Positions 11,833 through 49,600 of a DNA stretch of 64,000 nt are shown one piece after another (positions within the stretch are counted from its first letter, which is position 1; each line of letters opens with the position of its first letter). The DNA is from Isoetes taiwanensis. Taxonomy: Eukaryota > Streptophyta > Lycopodiopsida > Isoetales > Isoetaceae. The stretch is taken from assembly GCA_021234155.1 (NCBI GenBank), contig JAJEKV010000014.1:8387563-8451562 (forward strand), read 5' to 3'. The position numbers and the translations under genes are program-made. The notes beneath the pieces were generated by a model. It did not search any database. It had not been told where the DNA came from and worked only from the letters and a program-made list of their open reading frames with translations.

Positions 11833-11859
11833 GACGCATATCAAGAAGATAAGCAACAA

Positions 11860-13092: not shown

Positions 13093-13580
13093 TGTTACGG
13101 ACCAAGGGCAAGTGGCACTTGCGGCCTTGGGACGGGGAGTCTGCCTTGGAAATGCCACGGGGCTGAGGAGTAGTACCGCCTAGAGGCGGTATGGGGTTAT
13201 TTTTTAATGGCGTTTGCTTCGTATGTTAAGGTGACTTTTAAATAAATTATAAAGGCCTTATGAAAAAACCACTTAACCTTTGGTTTGGGGGTGTGATGTG
13301 GCATTACCTTATTGGTTAAGGTAAATATAAAGGGAAATCGAAGATCCCTGATCGCCGGATGCTATAAGCAGCCGGATCAGTTTAAAATAGGTCGGATCTG
13401 AGCATAGGATGCTCGATTTTTGCTCCAGAAAAGGCCCATCTGCCCTTTTCCAGCTATTCTTGGCCCTAATGGCCTGATAAAAGGATTTGGTGACGATTTC
13501 TGGAATCGCAGTTTTACCTCTGGAGCCAAGCAATTGGAGCATTCCCCTTTCCCTGGCTGCTTGATCTTCTGCCTCTAGGG
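13093..13580 (+). repeat. 3' LTR, missing its last part
   Basis: Starts TGTTACGG directly after the polypurine stretch. It matches the 5' LTR from about 13285 to 13580 (ending CTCTAGGGG), where similarity stops abruptly. The last about 290 bp of LTR seen at 7385-7669 are absent. Confidence 0.78.
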
Positions 13581-14441
13581 GTATCAAATGAATTCTACTT
13601 TGTATCTTTCATTACCTTAGACGCCCAGTTCTCTATTCAATCTCTCTTATATCGAAGGTACCCCATAAGCATCCGGATCATCTCTATTTATGTAATCCCA
13701 TCGATTTTATTTCTACTTTTGTTTGTCTCTGTGGTCCTCAGCTATTCGACCGAGCTACTTTTGTTTGTCTCTGACATGTCTAGGCCGATTGCAGCTGACA
13801 GGACAGCGCTAGCCATTTGATAGCAGTATCGGGGTCTGCCAAGGATGACCTCTCTCTCCTACATTGTTTGCCTGGGCTATATATTGATCAGTTGGAGAGT
13901 TGGCTTACTAAAAATGGGAGGCAACGGAGCTCACCTCCTGCACCAGAGCTAATGTTCTATAAATAACAAATATTCATGCCAAAGCAAACCACAAATCAAC
14001 GCTCCACTAAACAACACTAAACAATTGAATACATAATCATGAAAACAAAAGCATTTTACGCTCTATTTAATCAGAAGTACAACATCGACTCTTATCATTT
14101 ACAAGATGATAATAGTCAATAAAAAACAAAATATTGAATAAGAGTCAATAAACACGGCGATCCTTGTCACCTGCATGATAATCACAATAGTTTGTAATTG
14201 TGCATGCATCAATGGCTCCTTTAAAGGGGTTGTAATTGTGCATGCATCAATGGCTCCTTTAAGGGGCAACCTATTGATGCGTTAGCATCTTGTTTCTTAA
14301 TATAGACGATGGTAATTTCTTAATATAACTGGATAAACCTCCTTATGACCTAATATTTGGAAGTCCTTCGATGTTTGCTAGTGTTATAAGTTTTATAGTC
14401 ATTTACTAATGGCAATGTAGTTTCACATATCACCATTGAAT
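13581..14441. other. gene-free spacer with a 38-bp tandem duplication
   Basis: No gene recognised. A 38-bp unit starting TTGTAATTGTGCATGC is duplicated at 14192-14229 and 14230-14267. The direct flank of the palindrome at 14442 lies at the right edge. Confidence 0.5.
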
Positions 14442-27723: not shown

Positions 27724-29057
27724 ATTTTTAAATCTATAACTTAATGCTTATGAAGCTTGCACTATTAATTGAATAAATATAAAAGATAAACCTACTGCTC
27801 TAAGAACCCAGCAAGTGCAATGCTTGGAAATTTAGTAAATTGGAGATATAAAGTTCATCTGATCCCTTTAATTCTTTGAGAGATTAGAGATTTGTTCTAC
27901 AAAGTTGAGATTAAAGCATTAGAAATGATTCAAAATACATGCTGAAAAAAATGGCAGAAGCAACGCAAATCAGCTTCATTATTTAGCATTTCATGGAGTT
28001 AATGAATAATTTAGTATTAATCTTAAAGAAGCATAAATCTTGAAGGAATTGAAGAAGGATATGTATTTTTCAAAATTAACACAAGCAAGAAAAATCAAGA
28101 ACAACTCAACGAAGAAGAATGCTGCACTGACATGAGAAGGAAGGATTCTTTGAACCTCCGTCTGATTTTAGAGGAAGCACCTCCATATGATTTTAGAAGG
28201 AAGCACCTTCGTTTGATTTTAGAGGAAGAAAAGGAGGATCTTGGCATCATGAGCTAGATTGCAAACTTCGTTTAGCGTCAAGTTGAGAAGACCCGTCACA
28301 CCCCATATAAAAGAAAGCTAGACCGGTTGTTGCCTCATCCAGGTCTCGACCTGGAAAAAAGGAATTGTCGACATATTACTTTTTCGTCGAGGTCCAAAAT
28401 CTGAGCCGAGGAAGTCAAATCTTTATGGGAACATGGCACGCGTACGCCGGGCCTGAAAAAAACCCAAGGTTTTGGGCCCATTGGAAAGTACCCTTATACA
28501 CCACATGGCACACACAATTTACAGTAGAAATTCATTACACAAAATTTTATACGAATGCACATTTTATTGGAAGGAGTATAGCATCATTGACGTTAAAACC
28601 AAAACAAAAGGAAAAGTCAAAGTGTTCACAATGAATGTGAATAACACATCTATAGAAGTTGCCACCCAACATATAAAGGATGCCATTGTCTGCATTCATT
28701 TGCAGTGGTTGAGCCATGCATTGCTTCTTCAGAAATTCCCAATTCTCATTGAGGAACATATCATATTCTAGTTGCTTATTGGGTAAGCATGTTTCCTACA
28801 CCTGCAAGCTTCTTATCAGGTAACTACAATAGCTTCTACATTTTGAACATTTGCTTCTACTACAACTCTTCCAAATTGAAGATCTGCTTCTACTACAACT
28901 CCTGCGTTTTGAATGTCTATAAGAGCACATGCATAATATAGCAATGCTAAAATTCTAAACACTAAGGAGAAGCTAGTGCTATACCAGAAGATAAAATTGA
29001 ACCAGATGGTAAAGCTGAAGCAGAAGCACTAGCTAACATTGACGAAGAACTTGCATG
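27724..29057. other. spacer, no recognised gene
   Basis: Contains a minisatellite of about three copies of a 27-bp unit (GATTTTAGAGGAAGCACCTC-like) at about 28165-28232. Open frames at 28365-28771 have no recognisable domain. Confidence 0.4.
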
Positions 29058-29419
29058 GTGATGAATGGTGGTATCTTTGTGATGGGCCTCACATTGAAAG
29101 AATGGTGAACTTACTCGGAAGGCCATTGAGTTGGGCTGGTGCATATTGGAGATGGGATGAAAAGCAAGCAATGTTGCAGAGAATATATGGAACAACATGG
29201 GAAACTGAGGAACAATTGAAGGCATATCAAGTTCGGTAAGAAGAAGCAAAGCGACGTGAATTGTCGGCTTATGCAAGATCTTGATCTTTTTTCTATTCAA
29301 GTGACATTTCTTGGGCCTCCTTTCTGAAATAAAGATAGTGGTGAGCAAATATAGTCAATTTGTTGTCTAGGTTTTTGATAGTGTCTGATGTTCTCTCTTG
29401 CTTAAGACACCTTAATAGT
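29058..29419 (+). pseudogene. duplicated ThrRS exon 5 plus part of intron 5
   Basis: Close copy of 50622-51017. It begins exactly at the 5' edge of ThrRS exon 5 (GTGATGAATGG), covers the exon ([31 protein letters not shown]) and continues through the splice donor into the next intron as far as CTTAATAGT. In this copy the donor GT is mutated (TATTCAAGTGAC), a stop follows KAYQVR, and small deletions are present. Because intron sequence is included, the copy arose from DNA, not from spliced RNA. It is a gene fragment without coding capacity. Confidence 0.92.
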
Positions 29420-29991
29420 CTAAAAATAAATCACATACCTAGGAAGATCTCTACTTATAGCCAAAAACTAGAAGCCTACACAAAGAAACAAGAAAAATTT
29501 AGAAAAGCTTGCAAGAATAGTGAATGAAACAAAAAAGAATGTCTACAACCTTCAAAGCTCTACAAGTTCTGCCTAAGAATTCCTCTCCTTCTTAGATAAC
29601 AAAAGACCTTGAATGGATCAAGGAACATTTGCATCAGCCATCTGTAAACTCGAACCAAAGCACTGCCAGGCTACCAAAATGCACAAAATTTCTAAAAGCA
29701 TAATGCAAGAACTTGGCATCCGATACAAGAAAAAAACTTTGCCTAGCAGACGAATCTTGCACTAAAAAATAGATGAAAAAATAGGTTATGCTCTGGCGCC
29801 ACCAAACCCGTCACGAAATGGACATCCAAACATCATTTGGCGCAGCTGCAAGCAAAAAGCTCACCGCACCATCTCTATCGCTCGTCGGAAGAGAAGAAAA
29901 GCGAATCGGAAGAGAAGAAAGGAGAAACACAGACCAATTTTTTTTCTCTTGGCAAAAAATTCTGCCTTGTGGACATTTACGTGGCGTAATT

Positions 29992-30068
29992 GCATTGGCT
30001 CGGGGGTTTCCTGAAATAAACCCCCTGGCAGCCAGGGGGTTTATTTTAGGAAACCCCCTCCCCAATGC
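29992..30068. repeat. long hairpin / foldback
   Basis: The left arm GCATTGG...GGGGGTTTCC...AAACCCCCTGGC pairs with the right arm GCCAGGGGGTTT...GGAAACCCCC...CCAATGC with few mismatches and almost no loop. It is G/C-rich in an AT-rich setting. It may be a tiny foldback element or a structured site. Confidence 0.88.
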
Positions 30069-31152
30069 GGTTTCCTCCATCATAAAATATCCTAAACCAT
30101 ATGCCAAACGAATTAAGAGAAAAGAACATTTTAGCCCATTTCATTGTACACAATACAATCTCAAAAAGGTTTGCCAATTTGTTGTGAATGCATTGAGGGG
30201 TATTTATCCAATGGTTTAGCATAAGATTCGTGTGCATATATGTATTTAATTTCGTATATTTGTGGCCTTGGAGGGTGCTTTTTGCCAGGGCGTTTATAAA
30301 TTGAGTGTATTCTTTTTGGCAAGGCTTAAAAACGAATTGGGGAAATTTTCGACAGCAAGGCTTTCTATCCCCTACTGCGCTGAGGAGGCGGACGACTTTC
30401 TGTGAATCGGGAGGGAGATGGATGCCTTTTCATCCTACAAAATGGCCATTGATGATTCCTGGCCTGAGAATCCAGGCGCCAGAAGCTTGCAGTCGAAGCG
30501 AAAAGCGGAGCCAGAAGTCCGGCAATGGTCCAGAAGCTGGAAGGCTGCATAGGTGCGGCTATTGCTCCATATCCATAGATAAGAATTTAGCGAAGCTTCT
30601 GATTGATCTGCGGCCCCAGTAGCAGGCTGCATTGTACATAAAGACTTCATTGTTTAATTATTAACATGAATATATTGAATTCATACTGTGGCACTGAGAA
30701 ACACTATTTGAAGACGAATTTTTTTACCTTGAGATACTGTGTTTGTCTGATTCCTTCTGCTATCCTCACTGAAAAGGTTTGAACAAGGTAATGCTGAAGC
30801 GGGCAAAAAAAATTGAAGAAATAAACTATTCCCGAGGCCCAGGTCCCCGGATCGTTCTTGTGAAGTAGGCATTTGATGTTGAATTCTGTGAACTAAAGAA
30901 GAATGCATCCCCATTTAAAGCCTGAAATCAATGCTAGATTCCACAGATTTAAGTTCTTGCTTTTCTTTTTTTTCTCAGATCCAGCTACTTAATTACTGCT
31001 AGTAAAATAACAGCTGGCTTGACGTTAGAAGCTCTGTTTCATCGAAATAGAAATCCTTCATAAAAAATGGTGTCCAATTACTTCAAAAGGCTGATTCGAA
31101 GACGAAAATGAATGGATTGGATAAAGTTTCTTTGACTTTTTTTTGGCTTCTT

Positions 31153-31190
31153 ATCCCAGTCTGCCTTGAATAGGCGGACAACACTGGGAT
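31153..31190. repeat. stem-loop upstream of the Rep gene
   Basis: ATCCCAGTCTGCC pairs with GGCGGACaacACTGGGAT around a TTGAATA loop, with one mismatch and a 3-nt bulge. It lies about 290 bp before the Rep start codon. A word containing GGCTTCTTATCCC occurs at its left edge and again near 31257. Confidence 0.7.
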
Positions 31191-31483
31191 GCAGCGAACA
31201 GGGTAAGTTATGCAGCTGGGTACGATGATTTTGATGGCCTTAGTAGGCTGTATTTTTTGGCTTCTTATCCCTTGTGGATAGAGTTGCCGATTTGGGACGA
31301 ATCTAATTCTTGTTATATTTGGAAGGAGGCATCTTGTCCTATTGCATAATATTTCTTGGTGTTTTAAGGAGCTAGCATTGGTGTTGTGACGTCCAGTTCC
31401 CATGGATATTGAAGAAGGTAGTTAGCAAGCTTTTCTTGTTTTTTGCTCCGTTGTGTCTTGTTCTATCTTTGTTGCTTGTCATA

Positions 31484-32827
31484 ATGCTGAAGCGAGCAGT
31501 CCGCTCACGGGGCATCGTGTTCAAGGAGAGCGGTGTGTATAGGCCCTCCAAACCCAATAGTATCTTGTCTGGGATTTGTGAGAGATGTAAGATATTCTTT
31601 GGTGATAGCACAATGCATTGCTTAGATGATGAAGGCCGGGCACCCAAAAGCAGCAAATTGGCAGAATTGAGAGGGACGAAAGGAACTTCATCAGAGAGGC
31701 ATGTTTCTTGGGCCGTTGAGATAGGTGAAGGAAATCTAGTTGAGGAGCCAAGATTTACAAGTTGCTCCAATAATGTGATTCGGCATGTTGGTAGCAGTGT
31801 TACCATCTGTGGTGACGGCAGGTTTGATGACTGTACTTCTGAGGGCGGCTCAATTTTTATTCAGAAAGATGGGGAGAACAGAGTGGATTTGGGTGCAGGT
31901 TTTGCTGAAGTTTTTGAGGATAGGAGTGGGGTGGCCTCTCGTGCAAGTCAGAGAGAAGAGATTGGAACTAAGAAGAGTAGAGGTGTTGGGCGCGGAAGAG
32001 GAAGAAGTATAAAGGCTGTGGAGGATGTCTCTCGTTCTGTGGATGACTGGAGCGCCTGTACATTCTCAGGCAGTGGCGAAGGAAATAATCCGTACGTGAG
32101 TAATACGGATGGAGGTTCTGGTAGTGGGAATACTGTAAGAGGCTGTGGTCGTGGTCGCGGTCGTGGACGTGGACGTGGACGTGGAAGAGGTGGTGGAAGA
32201 GGAAGGGGGAGAACGAAGACAAATATGCTGGAAGAACATCTAGGCAGTGACATTGCAGGTGGGACGGGAGAGGAGGCCATTGAGATGCCGAGTCTTCTTG
32301 ATGTTTCTGTGACGATTGTAATGACTGGTTGCGACATTAACCAGAGCTTGTATGATCAAATGATAGAATTTGTGAAGTTGAATTGCCAGTCTGCAGTTGT
32401 GGCCTTGGAGAGGGGGTCCAGCTTAGATAACTTACATCTGCAGTGTGTTCTTCACCTGGATGCGAAGACACCATCAAGTGTGAATGTTAGAATCAAATCC
32501 CATTTTGGGTGGAACGCATGGAAGCCGCCAGGAGCAGTTATAATGTGCAAGGCGTTGCCTGATACAAAATTGCATTGTTTTGAAGGAATGGTGGGGTACT
32601 GCTTAAAGGACATGGGGAAACTTCATTTTAAAGTGCATCTGCATAACGTGACGGAGCGGCAGATTCAAGTGGGGAAGGATTTATATGCATTGTATGGAGC
32701 GGGTATCAAGCATTTAGTTACTCTAGACAATAGAAACTTGATGCTAAAGGCGAAACATTTTGTGGTTTATCACGGCAAGAGACAGAAGACTGCACCATTC
32801 ATAACAACTGTGAGGAACATGCTGTGA
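31484..32827 (+). pseudogene. Rep/HUH endonuclease-like protein, N-terminal and catalytic part
   Basis: Open frame of 447 aa from ATG 31484; the frame is open further upstream, but without another ATG. Residues 1-215 are low-complexity and acidic/basic. A glycine-arginine-rich run (GRGRGRGRG type) at 32138-32215 suggests nucleic-acid binding. A Rep catalytic domain follows. Motif I-like VSVTIVMTGCDIN begins at residue 273; motif II NLHLQCVLHL has HLQ at residues 318-320; motif III GYCLKD has Tyr 372 and Lys 375. HLQ plus YCxK is the signature of CRESS-DNA-type Reps, which nick single strands and bind the 5' end through Tyr. No Walker or SF3 helicase motif is seen. The frame ends at TGA 32825-32827, but similarity-like sequence continues in the same frame. 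It may be a Replitron-like transposon protein, a domesticated Rep, or of viral origin. Confidence 0.8.
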
Positions 32828-33199
32828 ACAGGGAAATTTGTTTTATCGAGCGTGTGGGTGCTTCCTTTGAACACCGCTTTCATTTCCTTGGATCGAGTGA
32901 ACGCAACGTGGAATATAATGTTGAATCCGGAGAGATGCAAGTACAAAGATGTGAAGATGGCTCTTTTTGGGTTGCAACCAGGTATTGTGCCTGTTGAGCA
33001 TGTTGGCCGAAGAAGGAAGCGTTACTGGGACGCTGCTGGTATTTATGAGAAGGAAACAGTGAGCGAAGAAAAGAACAGTAGTGAGGATGACCTCGCAGTT
33101 GATGATGATGGATTTGAAGGGCGCTCTAGTGTTATACCCAAGCCCTTTAGTGATTTCATTCCTTTAGATATTCATGATGAAACTATGGATGCAGCTTAG
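32828..33199 (+). pseudogene. Rep-like protein, segment after in-frame TGA
   Basis: The same frame as the preceding Rep segment runs on without another stop until TAG 33197-33199. It holds a conserved-looking block (ATWNIMLNPERCKYKDVKMA) and then a basic patch (GRRRKRYW, a possible nuclear signal) and an acidic tail (SEDDLAVDDDGFEG). The TGA at 32825 thus looks like a nonsense mutation or a recoded stop inside one gene. Immediately after the TAG comes a GT donor-like site (33200), and 33301-33305 is a good pyrimidine-rich acceptor ending TGTAG, giving a possible 106-bp intron. Confidence 0.7.
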
Positions 33200-33305
33200 G
33201 TTTTGTGTGCTGTTTACAATGTATTGCTCTAATTTCAGGTTTAGATTGAAGCTTACTTCTATTGTTTTGATATCTGATAGTTGCTACGTTCTTTTGGTTC
33301 TGTAG

Positions 33306-33441
33306 GTTTTGTACAGAGCGGTGTGGGCGATGAGGAGCGGCAGGACCAGCCTGTGCCGGCCCCAGAAATTGTGGTTCTTGATGACAGTATTGAAGATGAT
33401 GGGAACACGGCTACATCCATTAGAAGAAATGTTCTTGATAT
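33306..33441 (+). pseudogene. putative Rep-gene exon, 5' half, split by retrotransposon
   Basis: After the acceptor at 33305, an open frame reads FVQSGVGDEERQ, APEIVVLDDSIEDDGN, TSIRRNVLDI up to the retroelement boundary. The last bases GATAT (33437-33441) are the target-site duplication, repeated at 45850-45854. The frame continues correctly on the far side of the insertion. The exon is acidic with no recognised domain. Whether it belongs to the same transcript as the Rep frame is inferred from strand, spacing and splice sites. Confidence 0.65.
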
Positions 33442-35947
33442 TGTTGAAGGTGTACCTGACAAACCTTCAACTTAGTGGTTGAGAACCTCCAGGTTGCTTG
33501 AGGCAACCAATCTGTGGCCAAATTCCTGCACAAATCAACTCAAACTAGCTTGTGAACAACCTGTCCCTAAACAAGAAAAAACTGTCTGCCAAAAATTATT
33601 TGCCAAATGAAGTGGGATGATTGGTTTTTGTTGGGAATAGTTGCAATCGATGCTAAAGGGAATCCAGGAGATGCTTACAAAAGTCAGAGGCAAGTGGTTG
33701 ACCAGAGCTAGGTGAAAAACAGCTTCCTGACTGGGTCAATTTTGGGTCAATAACCCTGGCAGAGAGCTAAAATTTGCAGATGAGAATTTATGAGGATATT
33801 TTTTAAATTTCTTTCTTTGACACTTTCAACCTAACCTAGAGGACACGTGCATCATGTAGAGACAACAGAAAGTATGCAATGATGTGTACAAATGCCATTT
33901 TTATGGATTTTTTGTGACAGTCTGTAACGGAGTTGAAGAAGAGGTTTTGGATTGTGGTTTTACACGACTTTTTAGCTTTTAAATGATGGAGTTGGCCTAC
34001 AAGAGATGAAAAACAAGCTCTAGATGATTAAAAACTAGTGTAAAACACTATTTGACTAGACCTTTCTTGGTTTTTTGAGGAGTTTATCACTGGCTTGATG
34101 ATGCAGTATTGAACAAGCACTCCAGGCTGAGATTTTAGTTAAAAGACAACTTATACAAACCATAGTTGCGCTTCTTGTTGAGATTCAAACACTGCTACAA
34201 CACAAGTTGAACCAGCAAGATTCGATCTTCAAAACATGATCTTCACCAACTTCAAATTTTCAGTCAAAGGAGCCTTCAAGAATTACAATGAGAGAATTTC
34301 CCAGTGATTTGACATGGAGAAATTCATAAAATGAAAGAAACAAAGGTAATACATATCTTCAAATGATAATAAAGGACTTTATTGCACCAGATCTTCAAGA
34401 AATCTGACACAAGGAGGCAGTACAGGGCAAGCAGAGGTCATTCCCAACAGTAGCATGTTGGATTAGATCACTCAAGGCGCCGGGGTGCTCGAAAAATTTC
34501 TGAAACCTCAATGACCTCTTAAATTTGACAATTTCCGGTCAGTTCTTGATAAGGCAGATCAGTTTTTGCCTCTTCCGCCTGTAAATCACTTCTTGATCTG
34601 CAAGTCAATCGGTTGTGGTGTAGTAATCATGTCCTCAAAGTGAAGCCCCCTTTTCGAATAATCCCCTTTATCGTGGCCTTGCTCTTGTCTGATACTAACA
34701 AATGAGTTTTCAACAATTTTTAGCGAGATTCTTGGCATCAAAGGGCTAAATCCGATCGGTTTAATCATGATTTGCCAGTTGGTTGGGCTAATTTTTCGGA
34801 TCTTGCCATGATTCTAGGGTTCTTCACGACAACGGATATATCCCACAGGCATTTGGCGATAAATAGGCTTGGTTCCACGCGGCTGAATATAGTTGGTTGG
34901 GGCGTGACATGGATTTTTGGGGGGTAATTTAAGCCAAATGTTAGCACAACTAGGGTAGGGCGCGCATCCCGAGAACCACTAAAACTAGGGCTAGATGTGG
35001 TCAAAATGAGAATCTTTGACCACCATTTTGCATGATTTTTCATGGGCTTTCAGATGGAAAAAACAAATTTTGAAAATAAGCAACTTCATTTTTGGGCCTT
35101 TTTTCCATGGTGTACAAGGACATGTGGCACATGGGTGATGACTAGGCAAATGCTGATGATGTGGCATGGTGAGGTGGAAGGCAAGGTGTCAAAGAAATTT
35201 TCCCTAGGTAAAATCTTGATGAAGTGTGACAAGGTGTGGGTGACACGTGTTGGGTGAGTTGGTGATGATGTGGATGATGTGTGCATGACTTTTGAAGGTG
35301 AGGTGGCACTAGATATTGATTTCTTTCGACTAGTCAACTTTGGGCCTTTGGGATTTGATTTTTGACCCATACTTTGGTCTTGAATTGGTCATGTAATGGA
35401 CTAGTAGAGCTTCTCTCCTCTTTCTTTCTCTTTTTTAGAGAGAGAGTGTGCTTCTAATGACTTGTCAAGTGCATAGTCATGGATTATGATGTGTGTGTGT
35501 GATGTACATGGTGCATATGTATGAAATATGCGGTGTGTGAGATTTTGCCCTAGGGAAAAAAACTTTGAGCCATGGACATGTGATGAATGAAATGAGGAAT
35601 GGGTATGAAGGATGAGTATAGATGTGAGCAATGCCTTCTTGAGCCAATATCTCTAAGATAGTGTGAAAATCTCAAAAGGTGGCAAGACAACATACTTCTT
35701 TTGGGGTCTTCCAATCTTTGACTAGGGGTCTTCTCTTTTTGACTTCCTTTCCAACCTTTGACTCAAGTCTTGCTTACTTTTGCTAACTTGAATGCTCCTT
35801 TGAATGTTCTCCATTGGTCTTCAACTTGGTGTAAAGATCTTCATACCTAAACAATGAGCTCCAAATAGAAATGCCTTGCAAATGTGTTTTGATCTTTTTG
35901 TGTTTTCTTGTGAAGTTGCTCTTACATGCTGCCACAAGGTGGCAGCA
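33442..35947 (-). repeat. 3' LTR of the gypsy element
   Basis: 2506 bp, starting TGTTGAAGG and ending GGTGGCAGCA on the plus strand. It matches 43333-45849 throughout with scattered differences. The terminal GCTGCCACAAGGTGGCAGC is itself an inverted repeat. Open frames inside it on both strands are shadows. Confidence 0.97.
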
Positions 35948-36548
35948 TCATGCTAAACAAACAGAGGGAGTGTGGAGTGGAGATGGTGTTCTTCACATGA
36001 GCTTGCCAATGTGGTAGAATGGTTGGCAGCAGTCAGGGAGGAGACTTGTGTGCATGGGGAGCAAGGGTGGTGGAAGAAAGCTGTTTGAGTGTTCAAATGA
36101 ATATGAATGAATCAAGTGATGAACCTGCATGACAGAATGATAAATCTGTTAGTACTATGACTGCCATATGGAGGTGTGGTGGCAGTCTTTGACCTGGTTT
36201 TGAATGAAAATGGAGATGGGGGAAGGGCTTGTAATGGATTTTGGCCAACTTTGAGCAGATTATGTGCTTGTGAGTGTTTTGAAGGGTGGACCTGCATGGT
36301 AATGTGTGTGACCTGCCATTGGTTTAAGCATGTTTGAAGCTCCTTTTGCTGCTTTTGCTGAGGACTAAACATGATTAGGAAGTAAGGAAAGTGTTGTTTG
36401 CATAAAAAAGTAAATCTAGGCATAGTTAAATATGATCTAACCTACAACTACCTAGTTTCTGCAAGCAGGACTATTCAAATAGGCTTAAGGCAACATGCTG
36501 TTGCCAGTACCTCTTTAAATGAAGGATATTGAAAGGATTTGGCAGTTC
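35948..36548 (-). other. gypsy 3' untranslated region between integrase and 3' LTR
   Basis: Element sequence without recognised coding function. An obvious purine-rich priming tract directly next to the LTR is not visible on the minus strand. Confidence 0.5.
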
Positions 36549-37691
36549 CTAGCCATCAGTGAGATCCATGAGCCAATAAGACTCCTTGCCAGCCTCACCA
36601 ATGATCTCATAGGGTCCTTCCCACAAATTCTCAAACTTCCCTGCAACTTTCTCTCTGGCCTTGTTCCATTTCAGCACGAGTTCTCCTATCTTCATGATAC
36701 CTTGTAATTTGTGAGCAGCTTTGAATGCTGCCACATCCTTAGCCTTTTTCAGCAAGACTGCATTTTCAGCATCATACCTGTGCTCCTCAAGTTGCATCAA
36801 CCTAATAAACCTGTCTTGCAGAGCATCTTCCATTTTGAGGTTAATAATATGTGCCATTCTTAAAGAAGGCAACTCTAACTCTATAGGTAAGACAGCTTCA
36901 ATGCCATAAACCAAACTAAATGGGGTATGCTTGGTGGCATGCTTTATAGTAGTTCTGTAGGCCCATAATGCATCAGTTAATCTCAAATGCCAGTCTTTCT
37001 TGGATATGCTTACTGTTTTTTGCAGAATAAGTACCTTGTTTGTTGACTCTGCCTGACCATTTCCTTGGGGATAATATACTGAACTCTTTGTGTGTTTGAT
37101 CTTGAGGGTGCAGAGTAGCTGCTCAATCACTTCATTGACAAATTGTGAACCTCTATCTGATATTAGCTTCAAGGGGATGCCAAATCTGGCACAGATATTT
37201 TCATGAAGAAATCTGGCTGTTGTTAGGGCATTTGCTTGTCTCAATGGCACTGCTTCTGCCCATTTTGTGAAATAATCTGTGGCTACCAGTATAAACTCAT
37301 GCTGAGCAGAAGAAGAAGGATCTATAGGCCCTATAAAGTCCAATCCCCAGACTTGAAAGGGTCCTGGAGATATTATGGCTGTCAGTGGAGCAGGCTCTTT
37401 CCAAAGATCTGGCATTTGTGGCAACTTCTAATGTTTTCAGCAGTCTTTGAAGATTGAAGGCCAATAGTAACCTGACCTGAGTATCTTCTTGGCAGTTGTG
37501 TCTGCAGCAAAGTGACCTCCACATACACCCTCATGACAGGCCTTTAACATCAATTTTGCCTCAAACTTGTCCACACACCTTAGCAAGACACCTTCTTTGT
37601 TTACCCTGCATAAAACATCACCAATTAGCCTAAATTTCTTGACCTTGTCCTTGAATCTCCTGTTTTGGCTCGGGCTCTGATTCTTTGGCAA
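36549..37691 (-). pseudogene. gypsy integrase (HHCC zinc domain and DDE core)
   Basis: Two adjoining minus-strand frames. 37437-37691 carries LRCVDKFEAKLMLKACHEG and GGHFAADTTAKKILRSGYYW, the HH part of the HHCC zinc domain. A stop and a frame change separate it from 36549-37424, which has VWGLDFIGPID (first Asp), KLISDRGSQFVNE (second Asp) and GNGQAESTNKVL (Glu), all catalytic residues present. The C-terminal part ends ENLWEGPYEIIGEAG with no chromodomain. It would catalyse cDNA insertion. The core is intact but the domain as a whole is broken by the stop. Confidence 0.92.
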
Positions 37692-37727
37692 CTCTCCTTT
37701 TTTAAGGTACTCCCTAATTGCCTGTTG

Positions 37728-37990
37728 TCAGTCCTCCTCCTCAAGTAGGTTAATTGTAGCCTCCATGTGAGTGCTATCTAGATCCTCCAAGTCTTCATAC
37801 TTAAACAAAACAGCAGTAAGATAAGAGCTAGGATCCTTAGATTTGAGAGTTACCTGAATGTCTATACCATAATCTTGCACTCTGCAAGCCCACCTGCATA
37901 GTTTGGCTTTTTGTGGCTTCTTTGCAAAGAGTAAGGGCAGTGGATTTTGCTTCATGTACACTTGAGTCTTGCTACTTTGGATCAGGTGTC
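37728..37990 (-). pseudogene. gypsy RNase H, C-terminal remnant
   Basis: QNPLPLLFAKKPQKAKLCRW, then ACRVQDYGIDIQV and LKSKDPSSYLTAVL correspond to the end of a gypsy RNase H (the usual RWALxLQEYDFEI ... ADALSR block). It lies directly after RT, where the element's own RNase H is expected, but is cut off from RT by a stop at about 37992. Confidence 0.75.
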
Positions 37991-37991
37991 C

Positions 37992-39730
37992 CTATTTATC
38001 AAATAAATACATCAAAGCTGCTGCACTCTTCTCAAGCCTAGCATACCTCATTTCAGTATCAGACCATATTTTGCTGGAGAAAGTTACAATGTCATCCCCC
38101 TGCATTAAGGCAAGGCCTACAACCTTTTTGGTTACACTCAGGTAGGCTTGGAAGGGCTCAGACATGTTTGGTGGCTTAAGCAAGGTTGATTTGCAAATGG
38201 CCTCAATGATTGCTTCAAAGGAAGCTTGGCATGCTTCTGTCCAATCTACAGGTATGAACTTGCTTTCCTTTTTTGAGAACTTCTTTCCCTTGGTCAAGTT
38301 TGTAATGGGATGAACTGTGTGAGAGAAATGTGGCACATACATCCTTAAGAAGATTGTCATGCCTAGAAAGCTCTTAACTTGTTTGATAGTCTTGGGTGGT
38401 GTTAAGTTTCTAAGAGCTTGGATCTTGCTTTCTGCCACCTGAATCCCCTGATTTGAGACCTCATGTCCAAGTAGATTCCCTTTTGAGCAATAGAAGACGC
38501 ATTTCTTAGGGTTTAAACCCACTCCTCCTTTGCTGCACAAAGAACAGAGTTGTGGGAGATAAGTCATGTGATCTTCTAGCTTGGTATTGACACAAAGATC
38601 ATCCAGATAAACTCTGAACAACTTAGGATCCATATCCTTGAAAATGGTCATTGCTCTTTGAAATGTGGCAGATGCATTCATAAGCCCAAAGGGCATTCTC
38701 TTCATGGCAAAAGTTCCCCATGGTGTGACAAAAGATGTCTTGGCTTGATCTTCTTCCTTGATACTAATCTGGTTAAAACCTGAGAAACCATCCAAAAAGG
38801 AGTATACCTTCTTTCCTACAACTGCCTGCAATACTTCCTCAAGAAAAGGCAGAGGATAGCAGTCCTTTATTGTTGCCTTGTTCAAATCCCTGTAATGAAT
38901 GCATATCCTTATGGTTTTGTTCTTCTTTTCAACTGGTACAATGCAAGATAGCCAGTCAGGGTTAATTATCTCCTTTATAACTCCAGCATCTTTCATTTTG
39001 AAGAGTTCTTCCCTAATAAGATCTAACAAAGAACTGTTAATTCTTCTAAGTTTTTGCACAACTGGTTTTGATTTTTCTTTTATCTTGATCTCAAACTCAC
39101 AAACACTCTTATCAACTCCTAACAGTTCCTTATAATCCCAACCAAAAACATCATTCCAAGTGTCAAAGAAACTTACAAATGCTTCCCTTTCCTCTTCTTT
39201 GAACATGTCTCCTACATATAAGACTCTATCTTCATTGTTTTTTCTTACCTTGATTTCCTTTGCCTCTTTTTCAGAGCTGGCATTGATTACCAAGATTGGA
39301 TAGAGTTGCTGAAGCTCCTCATCTTCCAGATCTTCCTCCTTGATGGCTCCCTCAGCCAGATGCTCCATTAGTACATCTCTGCATAGGGAATCTGCCTCAG
39401 AGTTAAGCTCTCTAGGTATGTGCTGCAGTTCCCATGTTGTGAACTTTGCTAGTGCCTCCAATGCTTGATCTTTGAGCTTCACCATTTCTTCATGCTTTGC
39501 CTGATATTTCCCTTCAATCTGCCTGCATATGAGTTGTGAATCTCCAAAGATAACAAGGTTAGTGACACCCAAATGATTAGCCTCTTGAAGACCTGCAATT
39601 AGTGCCTTATATTCTGCCATGTTTGAAGTTAGATTCTAATAGATCCTCCCTACTTTGGCTAGCAACCTGTTGTCTTTGTCTTTTATGATTGCAGCAGATG
39701 AAGCAATGCTTAGCCTTTTTGATACACCCC
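37992..39730 (-). pseudogene. gypsy pol: RNase H-like domain followed by reverse transcriptase
   Basis: Long frame of 542 aa (37992-39620). Its first part is a second RNase H-like domain: EYKALIAGLQEANHLGV, NLVIFGDSQLI (with Asp), and HIPRELNSEADSL (with Asp). The upstream strand of this domain (SIASSAAIIKDKDNRLLAKV) is readable to about 39730, after one stop at about 39636. Then comes RT: VIKEIINPDWLSCIVPV, ICIHYRDLNKATIKD, FLDGFSGFNQISI, KRMPFGLMNASATFQRAM, RVYLDDLCV with the YLDD catalytic pair, and SKIQALRNLTPPKTIKQVK. An RNase H of this plant/archaeal type placed upstream of RT is not the order I know for Tat elements, where it follows RT. The frame differs by one from the gag-protease frame. 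Confidence 0.9.
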
Positions 39731-41053
39731 CATTTGAATGAAGTGGTAAGACTCATACTCACCTAGTTTGTTGAAAAGTGTAACAGTCCTTCTGCCATCC
39801 GAGATGGTGCACTCTCCTTTTGACCAAACTGGCCTTGCATCCACAGTTGATAGCCATCTTCTTCCTAATAATAAGTCATAAATTTCTGACCTTTCATTAG
39901 CTCCCTCAAATGCTACCACAACAAAATTAGCAGCTACCTTGATTCCTTCAATATCAATTGCTACATCACTTACCATGCCTACAGGATTGATTCTTGAGTT
40001 GGAGAAAGATTTTAGGATCATAGGGGCCTTTTTATCCACCTCCAACCCACTTCGTTTCATAATATGATGTGGCATGACATTCAAAGGTGATCCCCCATCT
40101 AATAATACCTTGTTTAGGGTCTGATTACCAATTCTTGTTGTGCAGGTGAAGGCACCAGGATCATGCTCCTCTTGTCTTAGCATTTGCTCGACTATATGGT
40201 TAGTAAAAACCACTTGCTCTTCTCTGGTGAGGTTTGCCTGCTCTTCTTTAGACATATCTACAACCTTTTCTCTATAAGAAGGAGCAATTCTTAGCAAAGT
40301 CAACAGATCTACACTTACTTTGGCATTTTTGAGCAGATACTCAAACTCATCACTATCCTTTTTTAGAAATCTTTGGTGAGGAGGAGGAGGTACAACCTGA
40401 TTATCAATTTGCTTTAGTTTCTGCACCTCTTGTCCATGAGACTCAAATTCTACTTCTTTGCCTTTGGCATTTGGGGCTCCCCTTGTGTGCACAGCCATGA
40501 TCTCTTCTTCTTTTTGAAAGCTTTCACCCTCAAAGTGCAATGAATTGCTTTCTTCCTGCAAATATCTGATGGAAGCACTAGGCTCAGGTCTTGGAAAACA
40601 TCTTTCATCCTGCAAAAACTTGACAGATGCACTTGGCTCAACAGCCTTAGCCTCCTCTTGCCTAGCAAAATATTCCTTAACACTACATTTATCTTCATAG
40701 TGTCCTATAGATTTGCAGAAAGTACAAAGAGGGCATTCCTTACCATAATGCCCTTTCTTACCACATTTTAGACATGTCCTATACCAGCAATAATCTGAAG
40801 AATGGGTGTTCCTGGTGCAGTGAGCACAGGCTGGGTAAACTCTCCTTTCTAGTTGGCTGGCCTTCATTTCCATGAGTTGTTTGGTCACCTAAGCCAAGGC
40901 CTCCGTGACTTTGTTGAGATCTGCTCTCATGTCTGACTCAGAACAGTTTGCATCATCAGTCTTAGTTTTTTTCTTCTCCTTTTGAATGGCATAGACAGGC
41001 ACAGGGGCAGATCCTATGTATTCTTGATTATAATCAGGGAAAAAAGGGTCATT
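39710..41053 (-). pseudogene. gypsy gag C-terminal part and protease
   Basis: Open frame of 392 aa from 40888 to 39710. The coding sense extends up to 41053 past one TAG at about 40890. It has two cysteine-rich knuckles, CAHC...CWY and CLKCGKKGHYGKECPLC, for RNA binding. The retroviral protease follows, with NKVLLDGGSPLNVMPHHIMK; LLDGGS replaces the usual LxDxGA/S core, which is common in plant gypsy elements. YDLLLGRRWLSTVDARPVW is the C-terminal protease block. At its upstream edge it is separated from the rest of gag by a poly(A)-tailed insertion. Confidence 0.88.
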
Positions 41054-42580
41054 AGAAAAATGAGATTGGTCGACCTAACCCTAGGCGCACAGTAGGGCGG
41101 CGGCGGCGGCCGCCCGTTGCTTGGACTCCTCTTGCTCGTGTTCGATGCTGGAAGAGCAGCTCAGATTGCTGCTATTGCTGGGTCATCGGTTCCTTAGGTG
41201 TATCAAGATCTCTGCTTTCCGGTCTGCCATGGATTTCGTGCAACAGGTTCATTCTGCCAAGGTAAATGCCGCAACCACTGGTGAAGATATTTTTTGTATG
41301 AGATTTGGATCAGGTCAGTAGAGATTTTATGTATTTTCTAAGTGATTCGGGTTGAGCACCAGCTAGTCTAACAGATAGCTTTTGATGAAACTGCTGTTAG
41401 AGCCTTAAGGGCAGATTTCAGTAATATTTTTCAGTTTTGGACAGTGTCTATACTTGTTAGTTTGTTGGATTAATGACAATGCTCCAAAGCTTCTGTGTTG
41501 TTTGCTGAGATAAGCTTGTAAGGGTATAGCATCACCCCATCTCCATCCCAGCTGGCGAGGATGTCATGGTGACCCGTCTGAGGCTGATTGGTAAAGCAAG
41601 AAATACGGTGACCGGGGAGACACGTGTCTCTTGTGGCTGCAACACATTTACTATTTAAATGGTAATGTCTTCAAATCTTTGAGGGTGTGCCGGGGAGGCG
41701 GTATTATTTAAACGGATATTTTGTCCCTTTGCAACTCCTATTTGTCATGACGGGCAGCCATGGATCCGTGGGGGCTGCATGGCTAGGAGGCGGCGTATGG
41801 TAATGCTCTCTAGGAATGAAAGAGGCATTCTCCTGTAGTACCTATGATTGCAGGAAATGTGAGTAACTTCCCTTTGTTTTGTTCAAGGAATAGGGCCACG
41901 ATGCGTAGTACTTCTCTTGCAAGGAAGAGGTTGAAGGCATTTTTTGCAAAAGTGAAGTGGTGGGTGCTTGGGTTTGATGTACGCGTCCTTTGAGAACCAC
42001 TCGTAGTATCTCATTTATGAGAAGATGGAGAGAGTTAAGCCTTTAGTAACGTAATGTATTTTTTGCTTTAATCTTTGGGGCATGCTTCAAGCTAGCGAGT
42101 GAATGTCTTGATGGAAAGGGTTTACATCTCCTATAGTATTATGGATGGGAGAAGAGAGTGAACTTTTAAGAGTGCACTTCTAGTCAAGTTATCCATCTTT
42201 GAAAAATCTATGCTTCGAGGGAATATATTTAGGAGTATGCTTCATAGTCTGGATGCATGTTTCTAGTAGGGCTCCACTAATGTAGCGGACTTCCCATAGT
42301 ACTTGATATGGTTGGAAGAGGACCAAGTCCCTTAGTACTGGATGAGACGAGAGAAGAGGCTTATATCCTCTTGTAAATGATAGGGAAGAGGTTGAAGGTG
42401 CTTCAATCAGAGTACACAGACATTATTGTATGGTGCTTTCTTAGCCTGACAGCTGCTTTTTTATGAAACTGATGCTTCCTATCTGGTGACCATGTGCTAC
42501 TTCTTCCTATAAGGCCATTTGGGCCACTATGTAATAAGGTCTTGGACCACTTTTTATTAATAGAAAATCATACCTTCGTA

Positions 42581-42610
<30 letters not shown>
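41054..42610 (+). mobile_element. poly(A)-tailed retroposed insertion in gag
   Basis: About 1.56 kb lying opposite to the gypsy genes. It ends in a run of A (about 42585-42616) and is bounded by a duplicated AAAAAAGGGTCATT (41040-41053 and about 42611-42624). Removing it restores the gag frame. The 5' end has a GC-rich (GGC)n tract at about 41095-41112. It has no long coding frame; the one at 41121-41321 is not recognised. This is a product of LINE-type target-primed reverse transcription: a truncated LINE, a SINE-like element or a retroposed non-coding transcript. Confidence 0.88.
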
Positions 42611-42617
<7 letters not shown>

Positions 42618-42619
<2 letters not shown>

Positions 42620-43296
42620 TCATTTGAAGCTTGCAGGTCATCAGGGAGGTAGGCCAACATTTCAGATGCTTCAATGGATCTCGTGAAAGCTTTGTGTATG
42701 GTGTCAAAACCTTCTTGCCTCTGCAGCTTCAACATTTTTCTGTAGACTCGAGGTCTGTTGCTTAATCCCCTAATAAAAGAGGCAACCAAATGTAAAGTGT
42801 GGTTAGGTACCTTGTGCACTTGGCATTTGGTGAGAGAGCAATTAAACCTCTCACCATATTGGTGAATTGTTTCATCATTTTTGATGTGAAAGTTCTGCAG
42901 CTCAAAGACTAGATCTTGTGGCTCAAGAAGCTTTCGAAACCTGGCCAAGAATTTCTTGACAATTTCCTCCCAAGTGTTAGCACCATCACTAATCACATAC
43001 TCTAACCAAGCTCTAACTTCCTCATTCTTAAAGCATTTCTTAAATTCAGCAAACTTACTCCCTTTCTTATAGCCACACTCTTGATAATATTCTTCAAAGG
43101 TCTTCAGAAAGTTATTGGCATTGATGCTTGGATCAAAAGTGGGGACAGGAGTAGGAATATTCAGCTCAAAATATGTGCAAGGCATGCCTGAACCATTTGG
43201 CAGTGTGACATGTGGTATTGATGATGATTCATGGTTTTCTGGTAATTCAGTATGTTCAACAGCATCAACAATTCTCCTGGGAGCCATGAGTTCCAA
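42618..43296 (-). pseudogene. gypsy gag, N-terminal capsid part
   Basis: Minus-strand frame beginning near MAPRRIVDAVEHTE and reading through the capsid region (FEEYYQECGYKKGSK, EVRAWLEYVISDGANTWEEI, FHIKNDETIHQYGERFN, HLVASFIRGLSNRPRVYRKM). Retrotransposon gag proteins form the particle in which reverse transcription occurs. The frame enters a run of phenylalanines, the reverse reading of the inserted poly(A) tract, so gag is interrupted after LPDDLQAS. Confidence 0.9.
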
Positions 43297-43311
43297 GATC
43301 CAGGTGATGTG

Positions 43312-43329
43312 ATCCCGGTAGGACCTCCA
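43312..43329 (-). other. primer-binding site of the gypsy element
   Basis: On the minus strand TGGAGGTCCTACCGGGAT begins 3 nt after the 5' LTR. It has the form expected for complementarity to a tRNA 3' end (TGG, seven acceptor bases, then ACCGGGAT of a T arm). I did not identify which tRNA. Confidence 0.75.
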
Positions 43330-43332
43330 AGA

Positions 43333-45849
43333 TGTTGAAGGTGTACCTGGAAAACCTTCAACTTAATGGTTGAGAACCTCCAGGTTGCTTGAGGCAACCA
43401 ATCTGTGGCCAAATCCCTGCACAAATCAACTCAAACTAGCTTGTGAACAACCTGTCCCTAAACAAGAAAAAACTGTCTGCCAAAAATTATTTGCCAAATG
43501 AAGTGGGATGATTGGTTTTTGTTGAGAATATCTGCAATCGATGCTAAAGGGAATCCAGAAGATGCTTACAAAAGTCAGAGGCAAGTGGTTGACCAGAGGT
43601 AGGTGAAAAACAGCTTCCTGACTGGGTCAATTTTGGGTCAATAACCTTGGCAGAGAGCTAAAATTTGCAGATGAGAATTTATGAGGATATTTTTTAAATT
43701 TCTTTCTTTGACACTTTCAACCTAACCTAGAGGACACGTGCATCATGTAGAGACAACAGAAAGTATGCAATGATGTGTACAAATGCCATTTTTATGGATT
43801 TTTTGTGACAGTCTGTAACGGAGTTGAAGAAGAGGTTTTGGATTGTGGTTTTACACGACTTTTTAGCTTTTAAATGATGGAGTTGGCCTACAAGAGATGA
43901 AAAACAAGCTCTAGATGATTAAAAACTAGTGTAAAACACTATTTGACTAGACCTTTCTTGGTTTTTTGAGGAGTTTATCACTGGCTTGATGATGCAGTAT
44001 TGAACAAGCACTCCAGGCTGAGATTTTAGTTAAAAGACAACTTATACAAACCATAGTTGCGCTTCTTGTTGAGATTCAAACACTGCTACAACACAAGTTG
44101 AACCAGCAAGATTCGATCTTCAAAACATGATCTTCACCAACTTCAAATTTTCAGTCAAAGGAGCCTTCAAGAATTACAATGAGAGAATTTCCCAGTGATT
44201 TGACATGGAGAAATTCATAAAATGAAAGAAACAAATGTAATACATATCTTCAAATGATAATAAAGGACTTTATTGCACCAGATCTTCAAGAAATCTGACA
44301 CAAGGAGGCAATATAGGGCAAGCAGAGGTCATTCCCAACAGTAGCATGCTGGATTAGATCACTCAAGGCGCCAGGGTGCTCGAAAAATTTCTGAAACCTC
44401 AATGACCTCTTAAATTTGACAATTTCCGGTCAGTTCTTGATAAGGCAGATCGGTTTTTGCCTCTTCCGCCTGTAATTCACTTCTTGATCTGCAAGTCAAT
44501 CGGTTGTGGTGTAGTAATCATGATTTCTTCCTCAAAGTGAAGCCCCCTTTTCGAATAATCCCCTTTATCGTGGTCTTGCTCTTGTCTGATACTAACAAAT
44601 GAGTTTTCAACAATTTTTAGCGAGATTCTTGGCATCAAAGGGCTAAATCCGGCCGGTTTAATCATGATTTGCCAGTTGGTTGGGCTAATTTTTCGGATCT
44701 TGCCATGATTCTAGGGTTCTTCACGACAACGGATATATCCCACAGGCATTTGGCGATAAATAGGCTTGGTTCCACGCGGCTGAATATGGTTGGTTGGGGC
44801 GTGACATGGATTTTTGGGGGGTAATTTAAGCCAAATGTTAGCACAACTAGGGTAGGGCGCGCATCCCGAGAACCACTAAAACTAGGGCTAGATGTGGTCA
44901 AAATGAGAATCTTTGACCACCATTTTGCATGATTTTTCATGGGCTTTCAGATGGAAAAAACAAATTTTGAAAATAAGCAACTTCATTTTTGGGCCTTTTT
45001 TCCATGGTGTACAAGGACATGTGGCACATGGGTGATGACTAGGCAAATGGTGATGATGTGGCATGGTGAGGTGGAAGGCAAGGTGTCAAAGAAATTTTTC
45101 CCTAGGTAAAATCTTGATGAAGTGTGACAAGGTGTGGGTGACACGTGTTGGGTGAGTTGGTGATGATGTGGATGATGTGTGCATGACTTTTGAAGGTGAG
45201 GTGGCACTAGATATTGATTTCTTTCGACTAGTCAACTTTGGGCCTTTGGGATTTGATTTTTGACCCATACTTTGGTCTTGAATTGGTCATGTAATGGACT
45301 AGTGGAGCTTCTCTCCTCTTTCTTTCTCTTTTTTAGAGAGAGAGAGTGTGCTTCTAATGACTTGTCAAGTGCGTGGTCATGGATTATGATGTGTGTGTGA
45401 TGTACATGGTGCATATGTATGAAATATGTGGTGTGTGAGATTTTGCCCTAGGGAAAAAAACTTTGAGCCATGGACATGTGATGAATGAAATGAGGAATGG
45501 GTATGAAGAATGAGTATAGATGTGAGCAATGCCTTCTTGAGCCAATATCTCTAAGATAGTGTGAAAATCTCAAAAGGTGGCAAGACAACATACTTCTTTT
45601 GGGATCTTCCAATCTTTGACTAAGGGTCTTCTCTTTTTGACTTCCTTTCCAACCTTTGACTCAAGTCTTGCTTACTTTTGCTAACTTGAATGCTCCTTTG
45701 AATGTTCTCCATTGGTCTTCAACTTGGTGTAAAGATTTGTCTTCATACCTAAACAATGAGCTCCAAATAGAAATGCCTTGCAAATGTGTTTTGATCCTTT
45801 TGTGTTTTCTTGTGAAGTTGCTCTTACATGCTGCCACAAGGTGGCAGCA
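43333..45849 (-). repeat. 5' LTR of the gypsy element
   Basis: 2517 bp, partner of 33442-35947, with the same TG...CA ends. The promoter of the element should lie here and face away from the ThrRS gene at 46608. Confidence 0.97.
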
Positions 45850-45854
45850 GATAT

Positions 45855-46200
45855 ACATAGGGGGCAGATAGGTCAGCACCTGATGGATTTGGAGCTCATG
45901 TGTCGAACTGTTTCTATCGCTGTTAGGAATGTGCGTTTGTCTCTCAGTCAGCTTTTGGATTACTTGCAAGAGGTGCTCAATTCGCTTGAGTTGGAGGAGC
46001 TGCATGCATCGCAGAGGGAGAGGGGTATGCTGCGAGCACAGGTGAACATGACGAGAGGCGTCATGATGCGAGAGCTGCGAGAGATGGAGAGTATGAGGCG
46101 ACGGCATATGCGTGGCATGAGGGATGAAGAGAGGATGTTGAAAAGAGATGTGGCATGTGAATATGTTGTTGTGTGTCGTTGTGTTTGTTTGTGTTGTTAG
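45855..46200 (+). pseudogene. putative Rep-gene exon, 3' half
   Basis: Continues in frame from 33441 once the retroelement and one GATAT copy are ignored. It reads HRGQIGQHLMDLELMCRTVS, LSLSQLLDYLQEVLNSLELE, and then an Arg/Met/Glu-rich helix (MRELREMESMRRRHMRGM) that should form a coiled coil. It ends at TAG 46198-46200 after a cysteine/valine-rich tail. AATAAA at about 46330 could serve as the poly(A) signal. No catalytic motif; possibly an oligomerisation tail. The frame carried from the retrotransposon LTR into 45855 is not real. Confidence 0.7.
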
Positions 46201-46607
46201 TAGGGATGTTATGTGGGAGCGATGTGGCTTGGGTGTATGTGCACTAGTATGTTTGCACAGATGTACATATGGCTTTGGTTTGGTTTGTGAGTAGATGAAG
46301 CTTATGTGTATAAATGGAGGTTATGTGAATAAATAAAGGCTATAGTCTGCTTCAATGGATCTATTCTATTTAAGTTTTGACAATCGTTTTTATTTTGAAG
46401 TCAGTATTGGCCGTGGATGTGGAATATTCTATTGGATATGCTCACATCCAACGATAGCAATAAGGATGGCAATAACGATAGCAATAAGGATAACAATATA
46501 GTTTGCCCAATTCGTTTTGTATTTGGGAGGGTTCAGATTTTTCGTGCCTTGATTTCTATCGGAAAATGTCTTCTTACCGGATTAGCTGAGAGCTCTGGTG
46601 TGGCACA
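46201..46607 (+). promoter_or_regulatory. interval containing the ThrRS promoter and 5' UTR
   Basis: 407 bp between the stop of the upstream frame and the ThrRS ATG, with both genes on the same strand. It must contain the ThrRS promoter and 5' UTR as well as the 3' end of the upstream transcript. A short minisatellite (AACGATAGCAATAAGGAT twice) lies at about 46451-46490. No TATA box is assigned. Confidence 0.4.
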
Positions 46608-49600
46608 ATGGGGACGTTGTGCTCAGCTAGAGTGCACCGTCTATCCCTGCCAGCAGTTTGGTCCGTCGCATTTTCTTCTCATCGGCTCCCACCATCGTCC
46701 CCTACCAGAAGGTATGTGGTTAAATTGTGAAATTTGTTATCAAGTAAATTGTACTAATTTGTGCAGTTAGCCTTGGATGACTTACTTTGTTGATGCTGCT
46801 GCATTTATGGCAATTCAATGCTCATTTCCTCTAAGCCTATTTATTTCAGAATTCTGCCTACTGAAGTGCACAAAAAGTTGAATTCCCTGCTCTCCTTGAA
46901 CTTTAAATTTCCAAGATAAACACCATAAGAATTCCAGCTTTATCATGCGGGTGGAGTCTTATCTTCCAGGTTTAAATAATTGAGCAACCTAAACACGTAC
47001 CAATCAATGCATACATATCACAGCAGCTACCGTAATTCTGTTTCAAAGATGGCATCATATCGTAGCAGTTGTCAATAGCATTGTTATGCATCTTATCAGG
47101 CAATTGTTATGCATCTTATCAGGCAATAATCAAACCAAGAGTATGAGACACTAGAAATGGTTCAGTATGGAAAGTGCTTCCATTTCATGTGCAATGTCTG
47201 AACATATTGGTTATTTGCAGGCGGATACTCCTAAGAAGTTATGAGTCTCATGTCCAAGGGACTAAAATATCAGCATTCAAATTGTTCCCTGTAAAGGACA
47301 ACATAATGCACATAGATGGTGTCAAAGTTCGGGTTTTTGCATCAGTAGCAGAGACAACTCAATTAGCAGATACAGCTATGGACTCAGGGCGAGGCACTGA
47401 TGAAAAGAAAATTGCCCTGCCCACTAATGAGTCATCTGAGCACCTTCTTCGTGTACGCCACACGGTATGCTTGCAAGGATAGCCAAACTTTTCTTTCACA
47501 TTCTATTTGTAGAGTAACAAATCATTAATCTCCTTGTCTAAATATTTCTTTTGCATGTAATTTTCTGAGCTCTGCTTTTGGTGGCAGAGTGCACATGTGA
47601 TGGCCATGGCAGTGCAGAAGCTTTATCCGGATGCACAAGTTACGATAGGTCCATGGATTGAAAAAGGATTTTATTATGACTTTGACCTAAAGGTGCCACT
47701 AACAGAAAAGGAGCTGAAAAACATCAAGAAAGAAATGGTGAGTTAGATGGACATTCACCATTTCCAGTTTCTTTCAGCATTGTCTCTGATCTTTAACCAG
47801 TTATTTGTGAATTGGTTGATAACAAATAAAGAATAAAGGCATGATTCTCAACAATTGTGAGGTATCAAAATTATATAGACACGTGCATAGTTCCAAGGCT
47901 ATGGAAAAGGCTTTGGATTAATAAGGATGTGCGGAACAGTATGGAGAGGCTTCAAGTCTATGTCTTCTCAGTTGAAAATAACATCAAATATTATTGGATG
48001 GATTTTGGAAGCCTGAAATAGCTTTTTGTCTTATAAAGCTCGAAAAGCATAGTGCATGGAAGCTCACTTGTTTCAAATTTCCAGTATTGCCTTGGAATGC
48101 ACACAAAGATATCACAGGACGCATGATGTGGCTTGGATGCAGATAGCGTGCTGCAGAGCAATGGGATCACTTGGATACTGCATAATCCTTGTAAGAACGC
48201 CTACTGCGAACACAAGATCAGGACAAGAAATAGTGAGATAAAGAAGCGCTCCCACTAACTGCCTATAGAGGGTAACATCAAGTGTAAGAGTCTGCCCTTG
48301 TTTCATAAGGCATTAGTGCTGATTTACAGTCAACCATATGAGATTTGTTCAAGAGTCCACAAATATATTTGTGTTGAGTCAAAATGTTTGAGGAAACTTG
48401 GAAAAGAAACGGAAGATGCTAATATTGAGGAGAAAACAAGTAAAGAGGACAAATGGAGTAATGTCTTATATTAGACATTACTGATGCAGAGGCACCAAGA
48501 TGATGTGGCACCATCTGGTCCCATCATATGTAAATGATGAGTTAGAGTGAATGTTTCATACCTAACAAGCACTATTTAGAAACTTGAGTTCCAACTTCTT
48601 GAACAGAAATATGAGACATATTAGCAGTAAAATCTTGTAATGAAGGTGTCACTGGAGCTGATTGTCCTGCTGGGTTAGAAGAAGCTTTAGCTGTCTTAAG
48701 AGCTTGATCTTGAATATATTGTGCAATATTCGTTTGCAACCTTCTACAATCTTTGTAAAAATGACCTTTCTTCCCACAATGGTAAACAAATATAGGGATT
48801 ATTAGAAGAAGCTATAGAGGAGTTCTGTTCTGGAACAGAAGCAGAAATTGCATAATTGAAGATTGAGCATTCTGTACCTCAGAGTAATTTGCCTCTTCCA
48901 CATGATATTTCCTTATGTGCTTAGCTTCTGCCTTCATAGTTGCTGCTGCAACTGATCAAAGGTGATCTTAATATGTTTCTTCATCTCATGATGATTAGTG
49001 ATATACTCATAGTCTTTGAAGAAGCCGTTGATAGCATGAATAATAGGAGCAACGTCATCCATCATGTAGTACGACCAGCACAATAATACTTATCCAAAAA
49101 ACTTCAATTGATCAAGATATTCCCCCATCTTTGCGGAGTCCTGAAGCTTAAGCTTATCCATTTTCCTTTAAATAGCAATCTGTTGCCCAGCTCTTGTTTG
49201 AACAGAATTCTGCCCTTTGAATAGCAATCTGCACAAAATCCAAAGCCTGGTATAATGTTTTAGTAGTTTGAAGATCTCTTTAAATCATCAGAAACTGTAG
49301 CCTTAAGAAGAGTAAGAGCTGTAACATCTTTCTTTTTATCCTCTGGAGTAACAGGAGCCCAAGTAGATTCAAATACTACAGACAATTCATGGCTAACAAG
49401 ACCAATGTTAATGGCTAACAGGACCAATGTTAGCCATTAACATTAATGTTTACCATTAAATTTTTACCATCATCAGTACTTTTTACCATTAAGGTCATGT
49501 GTAATGTACTTCCAAGAATGGAAAGAAGCCATGATAGAACAATTTGAAAACAGAAACTGAACAAGAGAAAGTTGTCAGGCCAAGTGCGATTTTTTTGTCT

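Follow-up and report, generated by a model that had tools for sequence, protein, structure and literature searches.

Organization of the locus

The window, that is, the whole stretch of 64,000 nucleotides that was analysed, carries on its plus strand a frame that starts with ATG at 31484 and is open for 447 codons. The TGA that closes it is followed by a further 123 open codons in the same frame, as far as a TAG. The first part of the locus has the following features.

31484..32824, plus strand: Replitron protein, first open part, 447 codons, with a GR-rich N-terminal region and then the HUH domain (frame reading, Pfam)
32141..32212, plus strand: GR-rich low-complexity tract, residues 220-243 (motif scan; overlapped by 26 of 29 solved-structure matches)
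32306..32686, plus strand: Replitron HUH endonuclease domain, positions 1-127 of the 128 of profile PF21859 (Pfam)
32435..32443, plus strand: HLQ motif of the HUH/HUQ type, presumably metal-binding, residue 318 (motif located; role as in HUH enzymes)
32597..32608, plus strand: YCLK motif, presumably holding the catalytic tyrosine, residue 372 (motif located; role as in HUH enzymes)
32825..32827, plus strand: in-frame stop TGA (frame reading)
32828..33199, plus strand: same frame onward, 123 codons, ending with TAG 33197-33199; no Pfam match (frame reading, Pfam)

The initial annotation had treated 31484-33199 as one frame. Its start at 31484 is retained; its uninterrupted opening is not, because the TGA splits 447 from 123 codons and the interval thus holds one internal stop. 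Other parts of that description held. Low complexity of GR type is present in the N-terminal region as the tract at residues 220-243, and HLQ and YCLK (the YCxK motif of the annotation) follow each other in the right order, 54 residues apart. As in HUH enzymes, HLQ is presumably metal-binding and the YCLK tyrosine presumably catalytic. The absence of a P-loop or helicase was likewise borne out: no GK[ST] P-loop was seen by eye in the 571-residue reading, and Pfam scans revealed no helicase family in any scanned piece of the frame.

Identity of the HUH domain

Pfam analysis of the 447-codon frame showed a match of residues 275-401 to PF21859 (Replitron_HUH), with E = 4.6e-19 and 69.5 bits; the cut-off of this profile is 28.5 bits. 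The alignment covers 127 of the 128 profile positions (1-127) with no net gap, and the GR tract lies outside it. When the domain alone was compared with PF21859, without the GR tract, the match had E = 5.8e-20 and 72.4 bits. The domain without the tract therefore scored slightly higher than the whole frame, which argues against a chance frame whose GR-rich low complexity is merely Rep-like. The tract does draw spurious matches to GR-rich tails, as such a chance frame would lead one to expect; given the two scores, we consider this explanation vanishingly improbable. Among 34 sequences, some of them overlapping, that were scanned with Pfam at E-value limits of 0.01 to 10, PF21859 was found in the 3 that hold the domain and was absent from the other 31.

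The guess of a Replitron-like element is thus backed by a match to a curated profile at a score far above the cut-off, and the profile search of 31484-33199 that had been suggested as a check returned PF21859 and listed no viral Rep family. At a Pfam limit of E 10, where the filters of the tool remove most matches above about 0.1, no viral Rep family came up with any piece of the frame, and no Helitron profile was listed on the frame from 31484. The element is assigned to the Replitrons because its HUH domain matches PF21859. By its enzyme domain it can with good reason be called a Replitron, and it is a further copy, broken but firmly identified, of a known kind of transposon.

A nested LTR retrotransposon

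Self-comparison of the window revealed a 2.5-kb direct repeat at 33442-35947 and 43333-45849, which delimits an insertion with these features.

33442..45849, minus strand: 12.4-kb nested LTR retrotransposon, LTRs at 33442-35947 and 43333-45849 (self-comparison, Pfam)
33437..33441, no strand: target-site duplication GATAT, left copy (sequence comparison)
45850..45854, no strand: target-site duplication GATAT, right copy (sequence comparison)

The LTRs are identical at 2474 of 2504 aligned bases (98.8%), plus 15 gap columns, and 24 of their 30 mismatches are transitions. The LTR ends are TG...CA, and the 5-bp GATAT lies outside both LTRs. Between the LTRs, on the minus strand, Pfam revealed gag, a zinc knuckle whose match falls slightly short of the cut-off, reverse transcriptase (RT) with RNase H, and integrase. 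The domain order gag, RT, RNase H, integrase is that of Ty3/Gypsy elements. RVT_3 (RNase H-like) precedes RT in one open frame, 37992-39635, and RNase H-like matches also occur after RT. A dual RNase H, with an extra domain beside the original one, is described for Tat elements in PMC5348765; the order seen here, with RVT_3 before RT, looks unusual. Because of the nesting, the Replitron is the older element and the LTR element was inserted later.

Probable continuation of the gene across the insertion

Two further pieces were found on either side of the retrotransposon.

33281..33441, plus strand: same frame, open again as far as the site of the retrotransposon insertion; probably a second exon (frame reading, flank joining)
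45850..46200, plus strand: Replitron frame resumed past the insertion for 116 codons and closed by TAG; charged, possibly helical by eye (flank joining)

When the flanks were joined across the retrotransposon, 168 codons were open in the frame of the HUH gene, to TAG 46198-46200. Among first-order Markov sequences, an opening of this length arose in 1 of 5000 with the same composition and in 0 of 5000 with window composition, and the right-hand 114 codons alone were open in 7 of 5000; these figures are a guide, because the 168-codon stretch was picked after inspection and tested only once it had already been seen. The stretch is most likely the second exon of the Replitron gene. The gene probably extends beyond TAG 33197-33199, because the frame re-opens at 33281 and continues to 46200.

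A splice search around TAG 33197, confined to GT-AG pairs of 60 bases or more, gave 8 GT and 7 AG sites, and 10 pairs would remove this TAG and leave the frame open through to 46200. Among the pairs tried, none was convincing as a link between the 168-codon stretch and the first part. G+C content by codon position dipped at the second position in the HUH domain, in 32828-33196 and in 45850-46197; in 33281-33441 both the second and the third positions were low. The second-position dip was absent from the N-terminal stretches 31484-31900 and 31901-32305, and it was present too in 33200-33280, which is presumed to be non-coding. As a coding signal the dip is weak evidence. No family match above cut-off was obtained for 45850-46200 with Pfam or NCBIfam. 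On the minus strand, a 219-codon frame at 45661-46320 runs antisense to the 3′ part of the Replitron; it showed a weak match to MLKL_N (E 0.0023, below cut-off) and is probably due to chance.

These results bear on whether the host could have domesticated the Replitron as a gene of its own, either with splicing that removes the TGA or with the 447-codon first part as the sole product. The 447 open codons, with a complete HUH domain and both motifs, are what such a gene would offer. However, the frame runs 123 codons past the TGA and then 168 across the insertion, which fits a longer, broken protein, and a 12.4-kb retrotransposon lies inside; the codon-position signal in the later pieces is suggestive only. 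Overall, domestication appears quite unlikely. Of the two possibilities put forward in the initial annotation, a Replitron-like transposon or a domesticated descendant, the first is upheld by PF21859, whereas a working or domesticated gene is disfavoured by the in-frame stops and the split by the 12.4-kb LTR element. Most likely, the locus is not an intact gene but a Replitron copy that has been inactivated and carries a nested insertion.

Structure prediction and homologue searches

Two single-sequence fold predictions were obtained, both of low confidence (pLDDT 38.9 and 43.9). Because of this low confidence, the fold prediction that had been proposed as a check gave the HUH fold no independent support. 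The first elements of the models follow the order strand-helix-strand-strand, with HLQ in the fourth; this order is compatible with a Rep fold but is no proof of it. A Foldseek search with the first model gave 1295 matches at E ≤ 10, none of them at E ≤ 0.001. Matches to solved structures up to E 10 numbered 29, of which 26 overlap the GR tract; the remaining 3 (residues 254-303) had E of at least 1.1.

Searches of protein databases for homologues returned 189 candidates with none at E ≤ 0.001, 18 with none at E ≤ 0.01, and 29 with none at E ≤ 10. In viral contigs, a set from which the genome records of the window itself were possibly excluded, 5 stretches fitted a pattern and none was confirmed. 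PHROGs gave no family, and NCBIfam gave no family above cut-off for the 3 pieces scanned. The collections searched are taken to contain few plants, so these negative results say little about plants. Rfam and tRNA scans of the whole window found nothing.

An endogenous piece of the Rep of a CRESS-DNA (geminivirus-like) virus was also considered. Its motif order, with one catalytic tyrosine, is shared by the frame, and the Rep of Muscovy duck circovirus appeared twice among the weak, non-significant Foldseek matches, at rank 24 (E 0.22) and at rank 46 (E 0.33). However, CRESS-DNA virus Rep (geminivirus, circovirus) differs from the frame, in which Pfam found neither a helicase domain nor a viral Rep match: no viral Rep family was listed at the limit of E 10, whereas Replitron_HUH matched at 1e-19 to 1e-20, and neither the GK[ST] P-loop (by eye) nor a helicase family was found. 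No close relative was found in the scanned viral contigs. A viral origin is therefore extremely improbable, and the distinction from geminivirus-type Rep drawn at the outset stands, no helicase having been found.

Ends, length and copies of the element

PMC10741241 gives the ends of Replitrons as short direct terminal repeats of 5-11 bp and a target duplication of 2-8 bp. Intervals 29400-31484 and 46150-47100 were compared in search of direct repeats, 5-14 bases long, adjoining a target duplication of 2-9; the best combined score was 13. Since 7 of 30 mononucleotide shuffles also reached at least 13, no pair of ends stood out above chance. The sequence repeated directly at 31139 and 31253, 19 bases long, was tried as an element end and rejected, because nothing closely similar lies on the right side. 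When up to 2 mismatches are allowed, its 13-base core occurs three times in the window, always within 30.3-31.3 kb; one of these sites has 2 mismatches, and 1.27 matches are expected by chance. The intervals 31484-33441 and 45855-46200 together come to about 2.3 kb, a figure for these two intervals and not for the end-to-end length of the element; Replitron length is given as 0.9-4 kb in PMC10741241. No second Replitron copy was found in the window by self-blastn.

Two small repeats lie near the left side of the gene. A 17-base near-repeat with one difference is located at 30789-30805 and 31482-31498, its second copy spanning ATG 31484; if up to 3 mismatches are allowed, chance alone would give 0.28 matches. 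The inverted repeat at 30002-30058 has 28-base arms that are 96% complementary and separated by a single base; it may be a small palindromic element.

Nature of the element

Taken together, the locus is very probably a decayed Replitron of autonomous type, a eukaryotic DNA transposon whose sole recognised enzyme domain is a single-tyrosine HUH endonuclease without a helicase, and whose 3′ part later received an LTR retrotransposon. The copy is most likely dead, because TGA, TAG and a 12.4-kb insertion lie in its coding sequence; one full protein is most likely impossible, since the stops break the frame.

In an intact element, to judge from the HUH superfamily, HLQ would hold a metal ion, and the YCLK tyrosine would nick a single strand where the element ends, remaining linked to the 5′ phosphate. 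The strand would then move to a new site with the aid of host replication, a reliance that we propose because no helicase was found. The GR-rich tract might, at a guess, bind nucleic acid. The 5′-phosphotyrosine linkage is a trait of the HUH superfamily, which is said in PMC13231165 to include Replitron transposases.

The original description of Replitrons is that by Craig (2023, PNAS e2301424120). The family is not known to carry a helicase. The element resembles Replitrons in its HUH endonuclease domain (curated profile PF21859) and in that no helicase was found; it differs from them in its broken frame and nested retrotransposon. Helitrons are eukaryotic transposons with an HUH domain plus a helicase. 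They resemble the element in the HUH domain and differ from it in carrying a helicase and in matching another profile, Helitron_like_N. The Replitron enzyme is called distantly related in PMC10741241, which names green algae, liverworts, mosses, lycophytes and ferns as Replitron hosts.

It is improbable that the locus represents a Replitron lineage that has gained a GR-rich N-terminus for binding nucleic acids, has a charged and possibly coiled-coil C-terminus on an exon of its own, and belongs to a plant group reported to be Replitron-free (hornworts or seed plants). If true, that lineage would widen the host range and domain make-up of Replitrons. The decayed Replitron preferred here gives a fuller gene outline of a recently described transposon group than the raw frame does, and indicates that a nested LTR insertion can mask the 3′ portion of a Replitron. 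For wider biology the locus is ordinary.

Other features of the window

At 690-1964 on the minus strand there are decayed Helitron pieces in separate frames, which match Helitron_like_N (E 2.1e-05 and 4.7e-06) and DUF6570 (E 0.00095), all below cut-off. The initial annotation had set the HUH gene apart from this Helitron remnant at 0.7-2 kb, and the weak matches of the remnant to these other families agree with that separation. A likely second LTR element occupies 7070-13582; a 309-base repeat at 7070 and 13275 (92.6% identical) encloses a frame that matches zinc-knuckle and protease families. Two copies of one repeat, 83% identical, are located at 29057-29419 and 50621-51017. Downstream of the Replitron, 51262-52107 on the plus strand contains core exons of a class II tRNA synthetase (PF00587) of threonyl type, a host gene with probable upstream exons, by eye, from about 47 kb.
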